Shown here: in pieces, positions 294-40,756 of the stretch | How positions within the stretch are numbered: position 1 is the first letter of the stretch | Layout: every line of letters begins with the position of its first letter | Origin: a virus | IMG/VR virus record: IMGVR_UViG_3300044699_000147 | Span: 1-40,756 of that record | DNA length: 40,756 nucleotides | Strand: one strand, 5' to 3' | Made by a program: the position numbers and the translations under genes | Notes under the pieces: model-generated | Databases searched by the model: none | Seen by the model: only the letters and a program-made list of their open reading frames with translations | Told to the model about the DNA's origin: nothing

Positions 294-394
294 CCCTCCC
301 CTTCCCATGAGTTTTCCCTGAAGGTTCGCCGGAAGCTGGTCCTCCGGCTCCCCACTGATTGATCATCGCGTCTGGGCGGCGGCGGCGGCGGCGG
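80..394 (+). ncRNA. Hairpin-rich noncoding stretch after terS, possible structured RNA or packaging site
   Basis: No convincing gene lies here. Strong stems seen directly: CCTGGT/ACCAGG (81-86/117-122); GGCACG/CGTGCC (from about 140); GCCCAC-GCAT-GTGGGC (181-196); CCGT/ACGG (247-250/272-275) around GACCCC-AGG-GGGGTC (253-267), with unpaired GA and GAAA sides; GGTCCCC/GGGGACC (279-293); and GCCGGA/TCCGGC (328-333/343-348). A short (GGC)n tract lies at 375-396. The stretch could be the structured 3' end of the terS transcript, a terminator cluster or a packaging site. No U-run follows any stem, so simple intrinsic termination is not obvious. Confidence 0.5.
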
Positions 395-1345: not shown

Positions 1346-1545
1346 GCGTCGAGGCCGACGTGCCCTGGCTGCCCGACGAAGACTTCACCCAGCGCTATCT
1401 CGCGACCCTCGATGCGCTCGCGCGTCTTGTCGCGCAGGCCGGCGTGGTCGACGCGCGCTACCTGTGCTGCTCGCGCCCCGAGCGCCGCATGACCACGGCG
1501 ATGCTCGAGGGCCGCGTCCTGGTCCTGCCTGCGGCCACGGCATGA
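1192..1545 (+). CDS. Hypothetical protein upstream of large terminase; start uncertain
   Basis: The frame is open from ATG 1192 to TGA 1545. The part that looks coding begins after about 1345 (LSVEADVPWLPDEDFTQRYL, then LVAQAGVVDARYL). Before that the frame is an Ala/Arg-rich shadow of the 1151 gene. The real start may therefore be a GTG near 1362, or the two frames may be one gene split by an indel near 1340. The stop overlaps the terminase start (ATGA at 1542-1545), which suggests coupling. No family recognised. Confidence 0.5.
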   Translation: MATDLAGGPAGAELVDLGARQAAAHEARRARDRAAAGRAAQDGAGPAYATLSVEADVPWLPDEDFTQRYLATLDALARLVAQAGVVDARYLCCSRPERRMTTAMLEGRVLVLPAATA

Positions 1546-3128
1546 AGCCGCCGCCGCCGCCGGCCTTCGAGCTGAAATACGCGCCGCCCGGCGAGACCAT
1601 CCGCGCCTTCATGAAGAGCGACGCCTGGGTGCGTGGCATCCGCGGGCCCGTGGGCAGCGCCAAGTCGAGCGCGTGCGCGATCGAGATCTTCAGGCGGGCT
1701 CTGGGGCAGGCCAAGGACCGGCTGGGCGTGCGCCGCACCAAGGCGGTGATCATTCGCAACACGGGACCGGAGCTCAAGACCACCACCATCAAGACCTGGC
1801 TCGACTGGCTGCCCGAGCGCGTGTTCGGCAAGTTCAACTGGAGCCCACCCTACGGCCACCACATCCGCAAGGGCGAGATCGACCTCGAGGTCCTGTTCCT
1901 GGCGCTCGACAGCGCCGACGACCAGCGCAAGCTGCTGTCGCTCGAATGTACGTTTGCTTGGGTGAATGAAGCCCGCGAGATCGAGAAGGGCGTGATCGAC
2001 ACCCTGACCGGCCGCGTCGGGCGCTTCCCCTCGATGAAGGACGGCGGCGCCACCTGGTCGGGCATCATCATGGACACCAACGCGATGTCGCAGGACCACT
2101 GGTGGCCGATGCTCGCCGGCGAGGTCCCGGTGCCCGAGGACATGGACCCGTTCGAGGCCGAGCAGCTGGTGCGCCCGCCGGGCTGGGCGTTCTTCGTCCA
2201 GCCGCCCGGCATGCTCGAGCGCCACGACGGCCGCGGCGAGTTCCTCGGCTACGAGGACAACCCGGCCGCGGAGAACCGCGCCAACCTGCCGGCCGAGTAT
2301 TACAGCCGCATGGTCAGCGGCAAGACCCGCTCGTGGGTCAACGTCTACGTTATGAACAAGCTCGGGAGCACGACCGAAGGCCGCACGGTCTATCCCTCGT
2401 TCCGCGACGACAAGCACGTCGCGACCAAGAAGCTCCAGCCGGTTCCGGGGTTGCCGCTGCTGGTCGGCGTCGACTTCGGCCTGATGCCGGCGGCGATCAT
2501 CGGCCAGCGCCTGCGCGGCCGCTTTCTCATCCTCAAGGAAGTCGTCGCGGTGCAGATGGGCGCCGCGCGCTTCGCCCCGCATCTCAAGGCGATCCTTGCC
2601 GAGATGCTGGCCGGCATGGGCCGCCGCCCCGGCCCCGAGGGTGCCGGCTCCGATCCCGGCGTCGCGCTGTGGGGCGACCCCGCCGGCGACCACCGCGCCG
2701 AGACCGACGAGACCACGCCGTTCCAGATCTTCCGCGCCGCCGGCCTGCCGATCGTTCCCGCCCCTTCCAACGACTTCGTGATGCGGACCGAGGCCGTCAC
2801 CCTGCTGCTCGAGCGCATGGTCGACGGCGAGCCGGCCATCCTGCTCGATCCCGCCTGCATGGTGCTGCGCGCCGGCTTCGCGCGCGGCTATGCCTATCCC
2901 AAGGTGGCGGCGTCGGGCGGCACGCGCTACGCCGACCGTCCGGCCAAGGACCGCTACAGCCACCCGCACGACGCGCTGCAGTACCTCGTGCTCGGCGCCG
3001 GCGTCGGCCACATGCTGATCACCCGCCCCGGCCCGGCCGCGAAGCCCGTGGTGGCGCCGCGCGAGGGCAACATCTTCATGCGCCGCAGCGCCGCGGCCCA
3101 GCGCCAGGCCGCGCGCCGTTCGCTGTAG
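1542..3128 (+). CDS. terL: Terminase large subunit
   Basis: This 528-aa protein is the ATPase/nuclease that drives DNA packaging at the portal. A Walker A-like loop GPVGSAKSS is at residues 35-43, and the Walker B/catalytic segment FAWVNEARE is at about 138-146. The nuclease half has VGVDFGLMPA (Asp near 311), an acidic DPAGDHRAETDE segment and DRYSHPHDALQYL near the end, the usual order of acidic centres. The start chosen is ATG 1542, overlapping the preceding TGA; a frame continues upstream but looks noncoding. A proline run follows the start. The gene is unbroken, unlike most long genes here, and the small subunit candidate lies on the far side of the noncoding region at 40066. Confidence 0.93.
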   Translation: MKPPPPPAFELKYAPPGETIRAFMKSDAWVRGIRGPVGSAKSSACAIEIFRRALGQAKDRLGVRRTKAVIIRNTGPELKTTTIKTWLDWLPERVFGKFNWSPPYGHHIRKGEIDLEVLFLALDSADDQRKLLSLECTFAWVNEAREIEKGVIDTLTGRVGRFPSMKDGGATWSGIIMDTNAMSQDHWWPMLAGEVPVPEDMDPFEAEQLVRPPGWAFFVQPPGMLERHDGRGEFLGYEDNPAAENRANLPAEYYSRMVSGKTRSWVNVYVMNKLGSTTEGRTVYPSFRDDKHVATKKLQPVPGLPLLVGVDFGLMPAAIIGQRLRGRFLILKEVVAVQMGAARFAPHLKAILAEMLAGMGRRPGPEGAGSDPGVALWGDPAGDHRAETDETTPFQIFRAAGLPIVPAPSNDFVMRTEAVTLLLERMVDGEPAILLDPACMVLRAGFARGYAYPKVAASGGTRYADRPAKDRYSHPHDALQYLVLGAGVGHMLITRPGPAAKPVVAPREGNIFMRRSAAAQRQAARRSL

Positions 3129-5159: not shown

Positions 5160-6778
5160 ATGCCCGACGGCTATAACGCATCGGGCCCTGCATCGCCGGG
5201 CGGGACGACCGACGACAAGATCGGCCGCCTCACCCGGCGCTTCCAGCTCGCCAAGAGCGAGCACAACAGCTGGGAACAGCTGTGGCAGGACTGCTACGAC
5301 TTCGCTTTGCCGCACCGCAAGGGCTTCACCCGCACCGACACCAGCGGCAAGGCGCTGACCGACCGCTCCTACGACATGACCGCCCGCGGTCTCGCTGCAG
5401 GAGTTCGCCTCGCGCCTCCAGGCCGGCATGACCCCGACCTTCGCGCGCTGGTCGAAGCTGATGCCCGGCGAGCTCGTCCAGGAGAAGCAGCGCGCCCAGG
5501 CCGAGGCCCGGCTCGAGGAGATCGCCGAGAGCCTCTATCGCGTCATCCACCGCTCGAATTTCGACAGCCAGATCCACGAGAGCTATCTCGATCTCGGCGT
5601 CGGCACCGGCTCGATCATCTGCGACGAGGACGTCCACGACGTCGTGCGCTTCACCGCCGTGCCGCTCACCGAGGTCTACCTCGACGCCGGCCCGTTCGAC
5701 AGCCTCGACGGGCGCTTCCGCTATCGCGAGATGACGGTGCGCGACTACAAGCTGACCTGGCCCAAAGGCACCCTGCCCGACGCGCTGCGCGCCGACGACG
5801 ACGCCACGCTCGAGAAGAAGATCCGCGTGGTCGAGGCGACCGTGCGCAACTGGGACGAGATCGCCGAGGAGGTCTACGACTACACCGTCTTCATCGAGCA
5901 GCACCGCCACATCGGCTTCGAGAGCGAGTACCGCGGCCTGGGCTCGTGCCCGTGGATCAACTTCCGCTGGTCGAAGGCCGCCGGCGAGGTCTACGGCCGC
6001 GGGCCACTGCTGCTGGCGCTGCCCGACGTCAAGGTCGCCAACCTGATCGTCGAGATGACCCTCGACTACGCCGAGATGACGCTGGCCGGCCTGTGGCAGG
6101 CCGACGACGACGGCGTGCTCAACCCGGCGACCATCACGCTGACGCCCGGCACCATCATCCCGATCGCGCAGAACTCGCGGGGCTTGCAGCCGCTCGAGCC
6201 GCCCGGCAAGTTCGATCTCTCGCAGCTGATGCTCGAGAACCTCCGCGGCAACATCAAGCGTGCGCTCTACGACGAGATGCTCGGTCCTCCCACCGGCACG
6301 CCGATGTCGGCGACCGAGGTCAGCGAGCGCTCCGCCGATCTCTATCGCCGCATCGGCAGCGCCTACGGCCGCCTGCAGCAGGAGCTCGTCCAGCCGATCG
6401 TGCGCCGCGTGCTCTACATCATGCGCAAGCGCGGCCTGGTCGACCTGCCGCTCGGCAAGGGCGCCGTCGAGGTCCACTCGGGTCTCGCCGCTCGCCAGCG
6501 CCCAGGCCCAGGAGGACGTGCTCAAGTTCCAGCAGTTCGTCCAGATGGTCTCGGGCACGTTCGGGCCGCAGATGATGACCATGCTGGTCAAGCCCGGCCC
6601 GACCGTCGACTGGCTTGCCGGCCAGCAGGGCGTGCGCAAGGATCTGCTCTACAGCCAGGAGGAGCAGGTCCAGATGATGCAGCAGATGCAGAGCATGGCC
6701 CAGGGCATGGCCGGCAATCCCGGCGGCGGCGGCGCTCCGGCCGAAGGCGCAGCACCGCCCGCCGGAGCTCCGGCCTAG
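5160..6778 (+). CDS. Portal protein (head-tail connector, T7 gp8-like), two apparent indels
   Basis: Forms the dodecameric ring through which DNA enters the head. Joined across two apparent single-base insertions, near 5384 and 6480, the product is about 538 aa, close to T7 gp8. Readable landmarks are RRFQLAKSEHNSWEQLWQDC at the start, EFASRLQAGMTPTFARW, LDLGVGTGSII, VRFTAVPLTEVYLDAGPFD, GLGSCPWINFRWSK and MSATEVSERSADLYRRIGSA, the usual portal series. The C-terminus is Met/Gln- and Gly/Ala-rich. The middle frame (5428 on) and the last frame (to TAG 6778) each continue the conserved sequence, so I read one gene. The stop overlaps the GTG start of the next gene. Confidence 0.88.
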
Positions 6779-38652: not shown

Positions 38653-38904
38653 CTAGCGGATGATGGTCGACTGAACCGGCGGGGCCTTCCGCTTGCGCGC
38701 GATGTCGGCCATGACGCCGGCGATGAAAGCCTGGTGCGCCCGGTCGTCGCACCAGCGGCGGAACCGCTGGGTGCCGACGATGATCGCATAGGCCAGGCCG
38801 ATCAGCCCGCCGACGACGACGAGGTACAGGGCGATGTAGAGCAGGCAGGCGACGACGAGGGCGCCGAGTGCAGCGAGCGCCAGGTTCGTGACGATGGTCT
38901 TCAT
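38653..38904 (-). CDS. First early-operon gene: two-span membrane protein, 83 aa
   Basis: ATG 38904 follows AACCTGGAGAG. The first half has two hydrophobic stretches (TNLALAALGALVVACLLYIA and LYLVVVGGLIGLAYAII); the second is a basic cytoplasmic tail (RFRRWCDDRAHQAFIAGVMA, DIARKRKAPPVQ). As the first gene after the inverted-repeat promoter region it should be among the earliest expressed. No family recognised. A host-takeover or superinfection role is possible but unsupported. Confidence 0.65.
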   Translation of the reverse strand: MKTIVTNLALAALGALVVACLLYIALYLVVVGGLIGLAYAIIVGTQRFRRWCDDRAHQAFIAGVMADIARKRKAPPVQSTIIR

Positions 38905-38921
38905 GAGGTCTCTCCAGGTTA

Positions 38922-38993
38922 TGGACGCCCCCACACAGGGAGCCTCCCGCCGACCTCCACGCCTCAGGACAGGGAGCGTGCCGTCAACCCCCG
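38922..38993 (-). promoter_or_regulatory. Inverted repeat, left arm; putative early-operon promoter
   Basis: About 72 bases that are nearly the reverse complement of 39135-39210. Read on the minus strand it contains CGGGGTTGACGGCACGCTC, then CTG and CCTGAG, then GGCGGGAGGCT and CTGTGTGGGGG, ending just before the leader of the first early gene. TTGAC matches a -35 element; no good -10 is visible. The same string in the right arm points the other way. Confidence 0.6.
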
Positions 38994-39134
38994 AGTCCGC
39001 GAGGCCGCGGTCCTCCGCGGCGCCCCGATTGCCAGGACCGGCGATCGCGGACTGTGAGCCACGCGCAACCCACGCCCCTTGGCGTGGGTGAGCATGGCGA
39101 CCGGCAGTCATGCAGCTCACGGTCTTGCACGGGG
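38994..39134. other. Spacer between inverted-repeat arms
   Basis: 141 bp with no gene. It contains a perfect 9-bp hairpin ACCCACGCC-CCTT-GGCGTGGGT (39068-39089) and CCGCGG-type palindromes near 39006-39020. It may separate two divergent promoters. Confidence 0.5.
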
Positions 39135-39210
39135 CGGGGTTGACGGCACGCTCACTGGCCTGAGACACAGTCGAAGGCGGGAGGCTTTCTGTGTGGGGGG
39201 GGGTGGGTCC
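39135..39210 (+). promoter_or_regulatory. Inverted repeat, right arm; putative rightward promoter
   Basis: Matches the reverse complement of the left arm: CGGGGTTGACGGCACGCTC, CTG, CCTGAG, GGCGGGAGGCTT and CTGTGTGGGGG are shared, with a diverged patch in the middle (39165-39175). TTGACG at 39140-39145 would be the -35 of a rightward transcript entering the structured region that follows. Confidence 0.55.
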
Positions 39211-39825
39211 ACCCCCACCGGCGAGCCGAGCGGCGAGCCGTCAACATGGAGGGCACGCGACACCACGGCCTTGTGGTGTCGTCCGCCGGCGCTCTGGCCG
39301 GCGGATGCCCGATCCGGGCGAACATCCTCGTGGGGGTGGGCCCAGCTGGCGGCGATGCGCCCCGTGATGGTGCGTGCAAGTCCGCGCAGCACGCCGCTCT
39401 CGGGGGCGCTGGTCGTCGGTCTTACCGAATCCGCAGGTGCGCGGGGGACTTCCCCCGCTCCGCCCGAAGGGCGGACAGCTCGCCACCCGGTCGCGCGCCC
39501 GCGGCCGCCAGGCCGCCCAGGATCTACGACCCGCGTCGTAGATCCTTCGCCCGCCGCTTGGGGCGGGCGATGCGCGCAGATAATCCTGTCTAGCTCGCCA
39601 GGGAGACGGCAGGCCGTCAGTCCTGCTTCAACCAGCCTGAATACCAAACCAAGGCAACTGGTCGCCTTCGACTTAGGATCGGCCTTCAGCTCCCGTCAGC
39701 CAATGACCCCCGCCCGCGCCCGGAAGGCGACGCCCCTGGCCACCTGGCCTAGCCCGGATCGTCACCCGTAGGGCGGAGACAAGGGCGCTTTGGCCCTTGG
39801 CTCCGGGAGGCCGCGCTTCGCGGCC
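39205..39825 (+). ncRNA. Candidate large structured noncoding RNA, about 620 nt
   Basis: No credible gene is present, yet the stretch folds into ordered domains. Domain 1: a 14-bp helix (39205-39218/39330-39343) encloses perfect hairpins at 39259-39280, 39283-39304 and about 39306-39327. Domain 2: 39344-39348/39476-39480 encloses 39357-39363/39403-39409, TCGGT-CTT-ACCGA (39417-39429), 39441-39458 and 39459-39475. Domain 3: 39493-39498/39572-39577 encloses 39501-39516, 39521-39544 (10-bp stem) and 39548-39569. Domain 4: about 39583-39588/39673-39678 with 39609-39626 inside. Last: CGGAG/CTCCG (39774-39778/39801-39805) around 39781-39798, then GGCCGCG-CTT-CGCGGCC (39809-39825). The strand is inferred from the upstream right-arm promoter candidate. 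Confidence 0.6.
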
Positions 39826-40065
39826 GACTAGAGCCGGTGAACGCTCCCAGTGATGACGCCGCCACCATCATCACTCACAGCGATAACGCCGCCCCGCAAC
39901 CCGCAGCGTTCTACTATGTAGAACAGAATGCTTCCAAGAAGGCCGATACGGCTCTGCGATCCCCTTGCAATTCTTAGCCCTTGACAGAACTGCACGCCCC
40001 GACCTCCCATCCCCTCGCGCGCGCGCGCACTCCAGAAGCAAGGAGCAGCCGCCATCTCTCCCGAA
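39826..40065 (+). promoter_or_regulatory. Leader region of terS candidate
   Basis: Gene-free. It has the palindrome at 39908-39924, a TTGACA at 39981-39986 with no clear -10, an alternating (CG/GC)n run near 40016-40028, and AAGGAG at 40040-40045. A promoter for terS is likely somewhere here, but I cannot place it with confidence. Confidence 0.4.
39908..39924. promoter_or_regulatory. Operator-like palindrome GTTCTAC-TAT-GTAGAAC
   Basis: Perfect 7-bp inverted repeat around TAT, in an AT-richer patch between the RNA candidate and terS. Size and symmetry fit a repressor operator for an HTH dimer. No second copy seen in the window. Confidence 0.55.
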
Positions 40066-40542
40066 ATGCCCTTCCAGCCCATCCCCGACGATCAGTCGAT
40101 CTTCCCCGATGAAGACAGGCCGCCGCCGCCAGCCGCCCAGACGATCGCCATAGGCGCCAAAGCAGAGCCCGAAATCCTCCCGCCAGCGCCCAAAGACGCC
40201 CCCCACGAGCGTCCCATCAGCAAGAAGCTCAAAACCGCCATCCGGTACATCGCCGAGGGCAACGGCGTCAGCGAAGCCGCCCGCCGCAGCCTGGTCCACC
40301 GCAACACGCTCGTGGACGCTCTCAAGCGTCCAACCGTCATTGCCCTCCTTGAGCAAACCGTCAAAGCCAACCTCGCAGCCTCCGCCGGCAAAGCCGCCGC
40401 TCGCCTCGATCACCTCATCGATGGCGCCAAGTCGGAGTATGTACAGCTCGAAGCGGCCAAGTCCGTTCTCGATCGTTCTGGCTACGCGCAGCAGTCAGGC
40501 CAAGCACTCTCTGGCGACGTATTGATCTCCATCCAGCTGTAG
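40066..40542 (+). CDS. terS: Small terminase subunit candidate, 158 aa
   Basis: Recognises phage DNA and hands it to TerL. The first 45 residues are Pro-rich and probably disordered. Then comes a helix-turn-helix-like core (KLKTAIRYIAEGNGVSEAAR, SLVHRNTLVDALKRPTVIAL) and a long helix (AASAGKAAARLDHLIDGAKS) ending AAKSVLDRSGYAQQSG, a LDR-x-G phrase common at the end of TerS proteins. The AAGGAG at 40040 is 20 bases from the ATG but 8 from an in-frame ATC at 40054, so the start is uncertain. Being far from terL is unusual. Lower third-position GC at the start differs from the structural genes. Confidence 0.65.
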   Translation: MPFQPIPDDQSIFPDEDRPPPPAAQTIAIGAKAEPEILPPAPKDAPHERPISKKLKTAIRYIAEGNGVSEAARRSLVHRNTLVDALKRPTVIALLEQTVKANLAASAGKAAARLDHLIDGAKSEYVQLEAAKSVLDRSGYAQQSGQALSGDVLISIQL

Positions 40543-40756
40543 TCCTGGTTGTGCCCAGAAGGGGGGCGGGTCCTTCAGGACCAGGCCTAACTGCAAAGAG
40601 CAGGCACGCCCCACAGGGCCGTGCCTCCGGGCACGTGTGAGTAGCCCACGCATGTGGGCGTTTACAACCAGGTATTACTGGCCCGTATCCGGAAGGGGCC
40701 GGGGACCAGCCGTGAGACCCCAGGGGGGTCGAAAACGGCGAGGTCCCCGGGGGACC
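40464..40756. repeat. Terminal direct repeat, right copy
   Basis: Exact second copy of bases 1-293. It starts inside the small terminase candidate, whose full reading frame is only seen at this end, and stops at the last base of a 15-bp palindrome. Either copy should be dropped when the genome is treated as a circle. Confidence 0.95.

Follow-up and report, generated by a model that had tools for sequence, protein, structure and literature searches.

Only a few large, ornate RNAs are known from phages, and what they do is poorly understood. REP/BIME palindromic repeats occur as dispersed copies in the 3′ regions of genes of one genome. GOLLD, from phages and prophages, is large and ornate, in many cases over 800 nt, with its function unknown, and ROOL, which is phage-encoded and multi-branched, was 659 nt in the published example and has no known protein partner (PMC12286853). 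In staphylococcal phages the structured cabRNA, about 400 nt in phi80alpha-vir, comes from the terminase region (PMC10686824), and for the Frpo/ssi single-stranded promoters the gene geometry has been described (PMC11541004). What, then, is to be made of the gene-free, richly folded sequence upstream of terS in the IMG/VR virus record IMGVR_UViG_3300044699_000147, all 40,756 nucleotides of which were analysed and are here called the window? With GOLLD it shares being large and ornate, and with ROOL being phage-encoded and multi-branched. An earlier sequence-only reading had noted the similar size of these RNAs and seen no feature assigning the new one to them, and the latter point held, an Rfam 15 scan of the window having given no match; the kinship, when tested, was not found. 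Across the window and the relatives scanned there was no GOLLD or ROOL match, the sole match being a tRNA in a terL relative (L117), with sub-threshold scores counted as chance. GOLLD is often near tRNA islands, whereas no tRNA was found in the window; its element differs from ROOL, which forms an RNA-only nanocage, in lacking an Rfam match, in not being near tRNAs and in that its 5′ domain is also on plasmids and in a chromosomal repeat set. Judged by these comparisons it is neither. It resembles cabRNA in being structured and in belonging to the terminase region of a phage, but cabRNA is transcribed from inside terS-terL, whereas this element is upstream of terS, ending before 39850 with terS starting at 40066, and its core is common to plasmids. 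Literature searches, in which subscription journals were covered only in small part, returned no paper describing it.

The ends of the record are identical (1-293 = 40464-40756), giving a circle of 40463 bp, and since it closes, terL (1464-3128, plus strand) sits downstream of terS, the terminase small subunit gene (phrog_2538; 40066-40542, plus strand). The first ORF of a leftward operon (38653-38904, minus strand, start codon at 38904) has no Pfam match, and from it to terS extends a non-coding divergent spacer of 1.16 kb (38905-40065, no strand assigned), most of which is filled by the structured part. Between about 38950 and 40000, over most of the spacer length, GC content shows no codon-phase bias, and a Pfam search of the longest ORFs there gave no match, in agreement with the earlier view that the region has no credible gene. 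A consensus scan of 38700-40300 found neither a promoter nor a plus-strand terminator. The terS-terL spacer (40543-40756 and on into 294-330, plus strand) is moderately structured (z -2.8, with z -4.2 for 181-300) and may hold a second structured element. TerS is at 33.6% to that of Pelagibacter phage Hodr, and the nearest terL proteins have 51% identity (the same phage) and 56% (viral contig L012). IMG/VR scans with TerS or terL as single protein gave no close relative covering the region, and the close relatives identified by tail protein (L091-L094) end short of it.

About 0.9 kb of this gene-free sequence folds far better than chance, and the excess is unique within the phage genome: the fold of 38931-39830 is 109 kcal/mol below that of shuffled sequences, and the 45 blocks of the genome, with that one among them, average -12.5 (sd 18). 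The sequence-only reading had confined the putative RNA to 39205-39825, and there its abundance of hairpins is real, with nine perfect ones of stem at least 6 and loop 3-8 against a shuffled mean of 1.9 and maximum of 6, or 13 against 5.35 when stems of at least 5 are allowed, and a fold well below shuffles (z -6.6). Yet the element, though indeed large, multi-branched and upstream of terS, is larger than had been supposed. It begins further left, at about 38926, and its omitted left third, 38926-39200, contains a long inverted repeat; z is -8.4 for 38915-39204 and -11.7 for 38915-39840. Judged from the window by itself, neither strand of the region folds better than the other (-574 and -577).

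Domain 1 (38926-39200, plus strand), delineated by that inverted repeat, its z of -8.4 and the MFE fold, is a long stem enclosing a conserved core. Its arms, 38928-38991 and 39136-39199, are 64 nt long and 81% matched as an inverted repeat (E 5.5e-12), the outer helix is CCGTCAACCC/GGGTTGACGG, and it has candidate kissing loops. Domain 2 (39199-39343, plus strand) has three hairpins within an outer stem, 39205-39218/39330-39343, in which 13 of 14 positions pair; it is recognized from the fold and no homologue was found. In domain 3 (39344-39480, plus strand) the perfectly paired 39344-39348/39476-39480 surrounds several hairpins, including 39441-39458 and 39459-39475 which adjoin without a gap, and in domain 4 (39493-39577, plus strand) 39493-39498/39572-39577, also perfect, surrounds three hairpins (39501-39516, 39519-39546 and one near 39548-39569); the three outer helices and the adjoining pair are those of the sequence-only reading. 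Hairpins 39780-39799 and 39809-39825 (39780-39825, plus strand) complete the array. As a homologue search for 39205-39825 found none, it is folding energy that argues for RNA in that part.

The core is a different matter. It occupies 39042-39114 on the plus strand, defined by a match to model R1, pattern scans and covariation, and its invariant part, 39056-39100, reads GAGCCACGCGCA-hairpin-GAGCATGGCGA. The order is a GGA/GA loop, GCCA/UGGC, C·A, GC/GC, a GCA/GA loop and a variable hairpin; the window has T for the first G of GGA. By eye, the window and L032, a terL relative with the core at the same place, share the exact words GAGCCACGCGCA and GAGCATGGCGACCG, a 12-mer and a 14-mer, beside unrelated hairpins, and that match preceded the building of R1. 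The window's core scores 57.2 bits (E 9e-14) with R1, of whose training set it is part, and the 13 matches above 50 bits include some that repeat one another and mostly sequences used to build the model. A pattern scan of viral contigs gave 20 matches to the core, among them those 13, where by our own estimate about two would arise by chance. Sought among terL relatives it was absent from most; it is present in L098/L108, L099, L103 and L112/L116 and weakly in L117. In L098, L099, L103 and L112 it is followed, 2.1-2.7 kb downstream and on its own strand, by an ORF the size of terL; for L099, L108 (the L098 sequence) and L116 (that of L112) the records confirmed this ORF as terL of the window's type. 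Other carriers are a phage with a phrog_38 terminase (L114), a Baseplate J phage (L104), an element with ParB/ArdC (L107) and a microvirus contig (L102), where the core is on the gene-sense strand. Folding around the core is not in excess in L103 (z -0.6), L107 (-0.7) or L114 (+1.5), so ornate surroundings are not universal. A wider viral pattern yielded mostly chance matches, with six of 44 new loci passing E 0.001 and four scoring over 40 bits, and inspection by eye led to L100, L105, L106, L110, L113 and L115 being excluded because they looked coding or were doubtful matches.

Does the core really covary? In alignment A3 there are 14 double-change cells against 4.7 in shuffled alignments, and the invariance of GCCA/UGGC among the phage members was partly imposed by the search pattern. 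That objection is removed by the genome of Acuticoccus yangtzensis (G016), in whose copies the same helix covaries. Its 32 dispersed copies (e.g., L291-L310) include several between convergent genes; further hairpins, of the form CTCGGGCTTCTTCAGCCCGA and GCGAGGGGGGAACTCCCCTCGC, then follow the core. Across 27 copies the stem is of about 30 pairs, and the arms vary from copy to copy with their complementarity kept and the mismatched loops fixed. In alignment A7, made of 26 copies and 35 pairs, both sides have changed in 20 of the 35, and the 125 double-change cells (35 when shuffled) were equalled in none of 500 shuffles; 96.7% of cells are paired, against 36-42% when the arms are slid, and RNAalifold recovers the same structure. 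On which strand does the structure form? Folding-energy and Watson-Crick-only mismatch tests, which at first seemed to favour DNA, were dropped, since an RNase P control drawn from the same genomes showed them to have no power, and the aligned Acuticoccus copies were used instead. Over 33 positions in 27 copies there are 80 G-U and 39 A-C, 26 of the latter being the fixed C·A, and within the 35 pairs of A7, which do not include it, a hand count gives about 62 G-U and 2 A-C. Covariation together with this bias argues for a folded molecule of one strand, in all likelihood an RNA with the same sense as terS.

In bacterial genomes a near-identical pattern is on at least 117 contigs, against a chance expectation of about one by our own estimate, and among the matches listed these contigs are mostly alphaproteobacterial; at least five of the matching loci (L134, L140, L142, L165, L184) looked coding or doubtful on inspection by eye and were left out. 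Nearby genes encode plasmid Rep proteins, ArdA, ArdC and resolvases, and on annotated plasmids ArdC-like zincin peptidase, SSB, ParB and giant helicase genes. The conserved domain is not peculiar to phages, as plasmids and a chromosomal repeat family carry it too. An R1 survey of the class, with filters strict enough that members may be missed, found the core in one of 190 genomes, namely that at the centre of the draw, so by this measure prevalence is low. From these alignments and matches the 5′ domain of the window's element is a member of an uncatalogued RNA family, a module of phages and plasmids, comprising a long covarying stem, stacked asymmetric purine loops (GGA/GA, GCA/GA and the fixed C·A) and a variable hairpin cap. 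L120 (5353-5411), L132 and L192 have two internal-loop units in tandem (GCCACGCGCAGCCACGCGCA ... GAGCATGGCGAGCATGG); a Chelatococcus contig (L145) has core copies at 5914-5951 and 6466-6516, about 500 bp apart on opposite strands; and L237 (MT837352, ‘Bacteriophage sp.’), which carries the element along with ArdC-like and ParA-like genes, looks by its gene content like a plasmid rather than a phage.

Upstream of terS, structure is widespread even where the core is missing. Most of 30 terL relatives with enough sequence are strongly structured there, with z down to -19, in a divergent spacer of variable size whose sequence is barely alignable to the window. A marine group without the core (L059, L064, L069, L072, L086) has its own long hairpin with a three-way junction, with double changes in 16 of 63 pairs (7.9 when shuffled); 90.4% of its cells are paired, a share that falls to 35-52% if the arms are slid. 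Covariation in homologues, proposed earlier as a check on the RNA, is thus found for the 5′ domain and for the equivalent region of marine relatives; 39205-39825 is without homologue. In Pelagibacter phage Hodr (L007, 3430-3880) a long imperfect inverted repeat is centred on the divergent spacer, and its right arm resembles the beginning of the divergent gene, copied in inverted orientation and degenerate. In L066, L073, L021, L039 and others a box resembling TTGACA and, after it, two stretches of about six Gs are just upstream of terS, possibly, from the motifs, its promoter and a binding site.

We think it somewhat better than an even chance that 38926-39840 is a large structured non-coding plus-strand RNA, with its 5′ domain from a mobile-element family absent from Rfam, acting in trans. 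The spacer RNA would be made as an independent transcript, single across the spacer, and fold into a multi-domain scaffold that, as the mobile element establishes, either targets a host factor in trans or assembles with itself; one example of such a role would be an RNA decoy against host defence. Counting against this reading are the consensus scan without promoter or plus-strand terminator, the equal folding of the two strands, the lack of a homologue in the search with 39205-39825, the members with no folding excess around the core, and the absence of the core from most terL relatives. That an RNA of mobile elements probably acts in trans, and early, is suggested by the establishment and anti-restriction genes near it on plasmids; the 32 chromosomal copies, often between convergent genes, do not fit simply with such a role. 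Those copies, with the sporadic distribution of one genome in 190 of the class, are what would be expected of a dispersed palindromic DNA repeat, REP/MITE-like, whose arms are kept complementary by template switching and not through selection on a structured molecule, and their place in the 3′ regions of genes of one genome is that of REP/BIME. Arm correction, however, would not be expected to leave 26 copies with identical mismatched loops, or to yield a bias of G-U over A-C, and a long covarying stem with fixed internal loops that is also on phages and plasmids is unlike REP/BIME, so that we consider this origin improbable. To a packaging element by terS, whether a DNA structure (pac/cos) or a packaging RNA like pRNA, we give equally little credence: the place directly upstream of terS and terL in terL relatives favours it, but the distribution is not restricted to elements whose DNA is packaged by a terminase, the core being equally on plasmids and bacterial chromosomes, and a packaging role is hard to reconcile with its presence on plasmids and in a microvirus.

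More serious, though still unlikely, is an element of single-stranded DNA, a folded promoter or priming site of Frpo/ssi type, active on ssDNA entry, by which leading-region genes would be expressed or primed. Like those promoters the core is in a structured non-coding element by such genes (those for ArdC-like zincin peptidase, SSB, ParB and the giant helicase), and its gene orientation is theirs: on all 11 annotated plasmids the first annotated gene to the left points away, so that the folded strand is the template, as in the Frpo geometry (PMC11541004). Those promoters have their -35 and -10 boxes within the stem; here 47 of 88 elements have TTGA[CT] in the 3′ flank and 4 have it on the left, so that a TTGAC in the stem may be such a box, and the consensus scan of the window gave no promoter. 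The gene-sense strand of the microvirus contig carries the core. Against this, the 11 plasmids amount to about nine independent cases as three Acetobacter plasmids are homologous, the bias over all genome loci by crude ORF calls is weaker (nearest ORFs 70 leftward to 47 rightward), no -10 box was seen by eye, and the chromosomal and tailed dsDNA phage copies have no obvious ssDNA stage. The wobble bias in covarying helices is RNA-like, but folded ssDNA also tolerates G-T, and for this reason the ssDNA proposal keeps some weight. Least probable of all, and very much so, is a minus-strand 5′ leader acting as a cis-regulatory RNA of the leftward operon; only about 22 nt separate the outer stem from the start codon of the first leftward ORF, and on plasmids too the element is upstream of a leftward gene, but the wobble bias is on the opposite strand.

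With the trans-acting RNA preferred, how far can it be generalized? A broader proposal, tentative and to our minds somewhat short of an even chance, is that of a new class of mobile-element RNA, of conjugative plasmids and both ssDNA and dsDNA phages and amplified on a chromosome, that would act in trans in anti-defence, host take-over or RNA-only assembly, the phage version being within an ornate RNA of 0.9 kb. The window adds a probable RNA absent from Rfam with a strongly covarying core and, as that core is in cultured bacteria (Acuticoccus, Acetobacter, Shinella and others), its expression, structure and function are directly testable. The ArdC-like, SSB and ParB genes of its plasmid neighbourhood provide a concrete hypothesis, that it may serve the early establishment of mobile elements.
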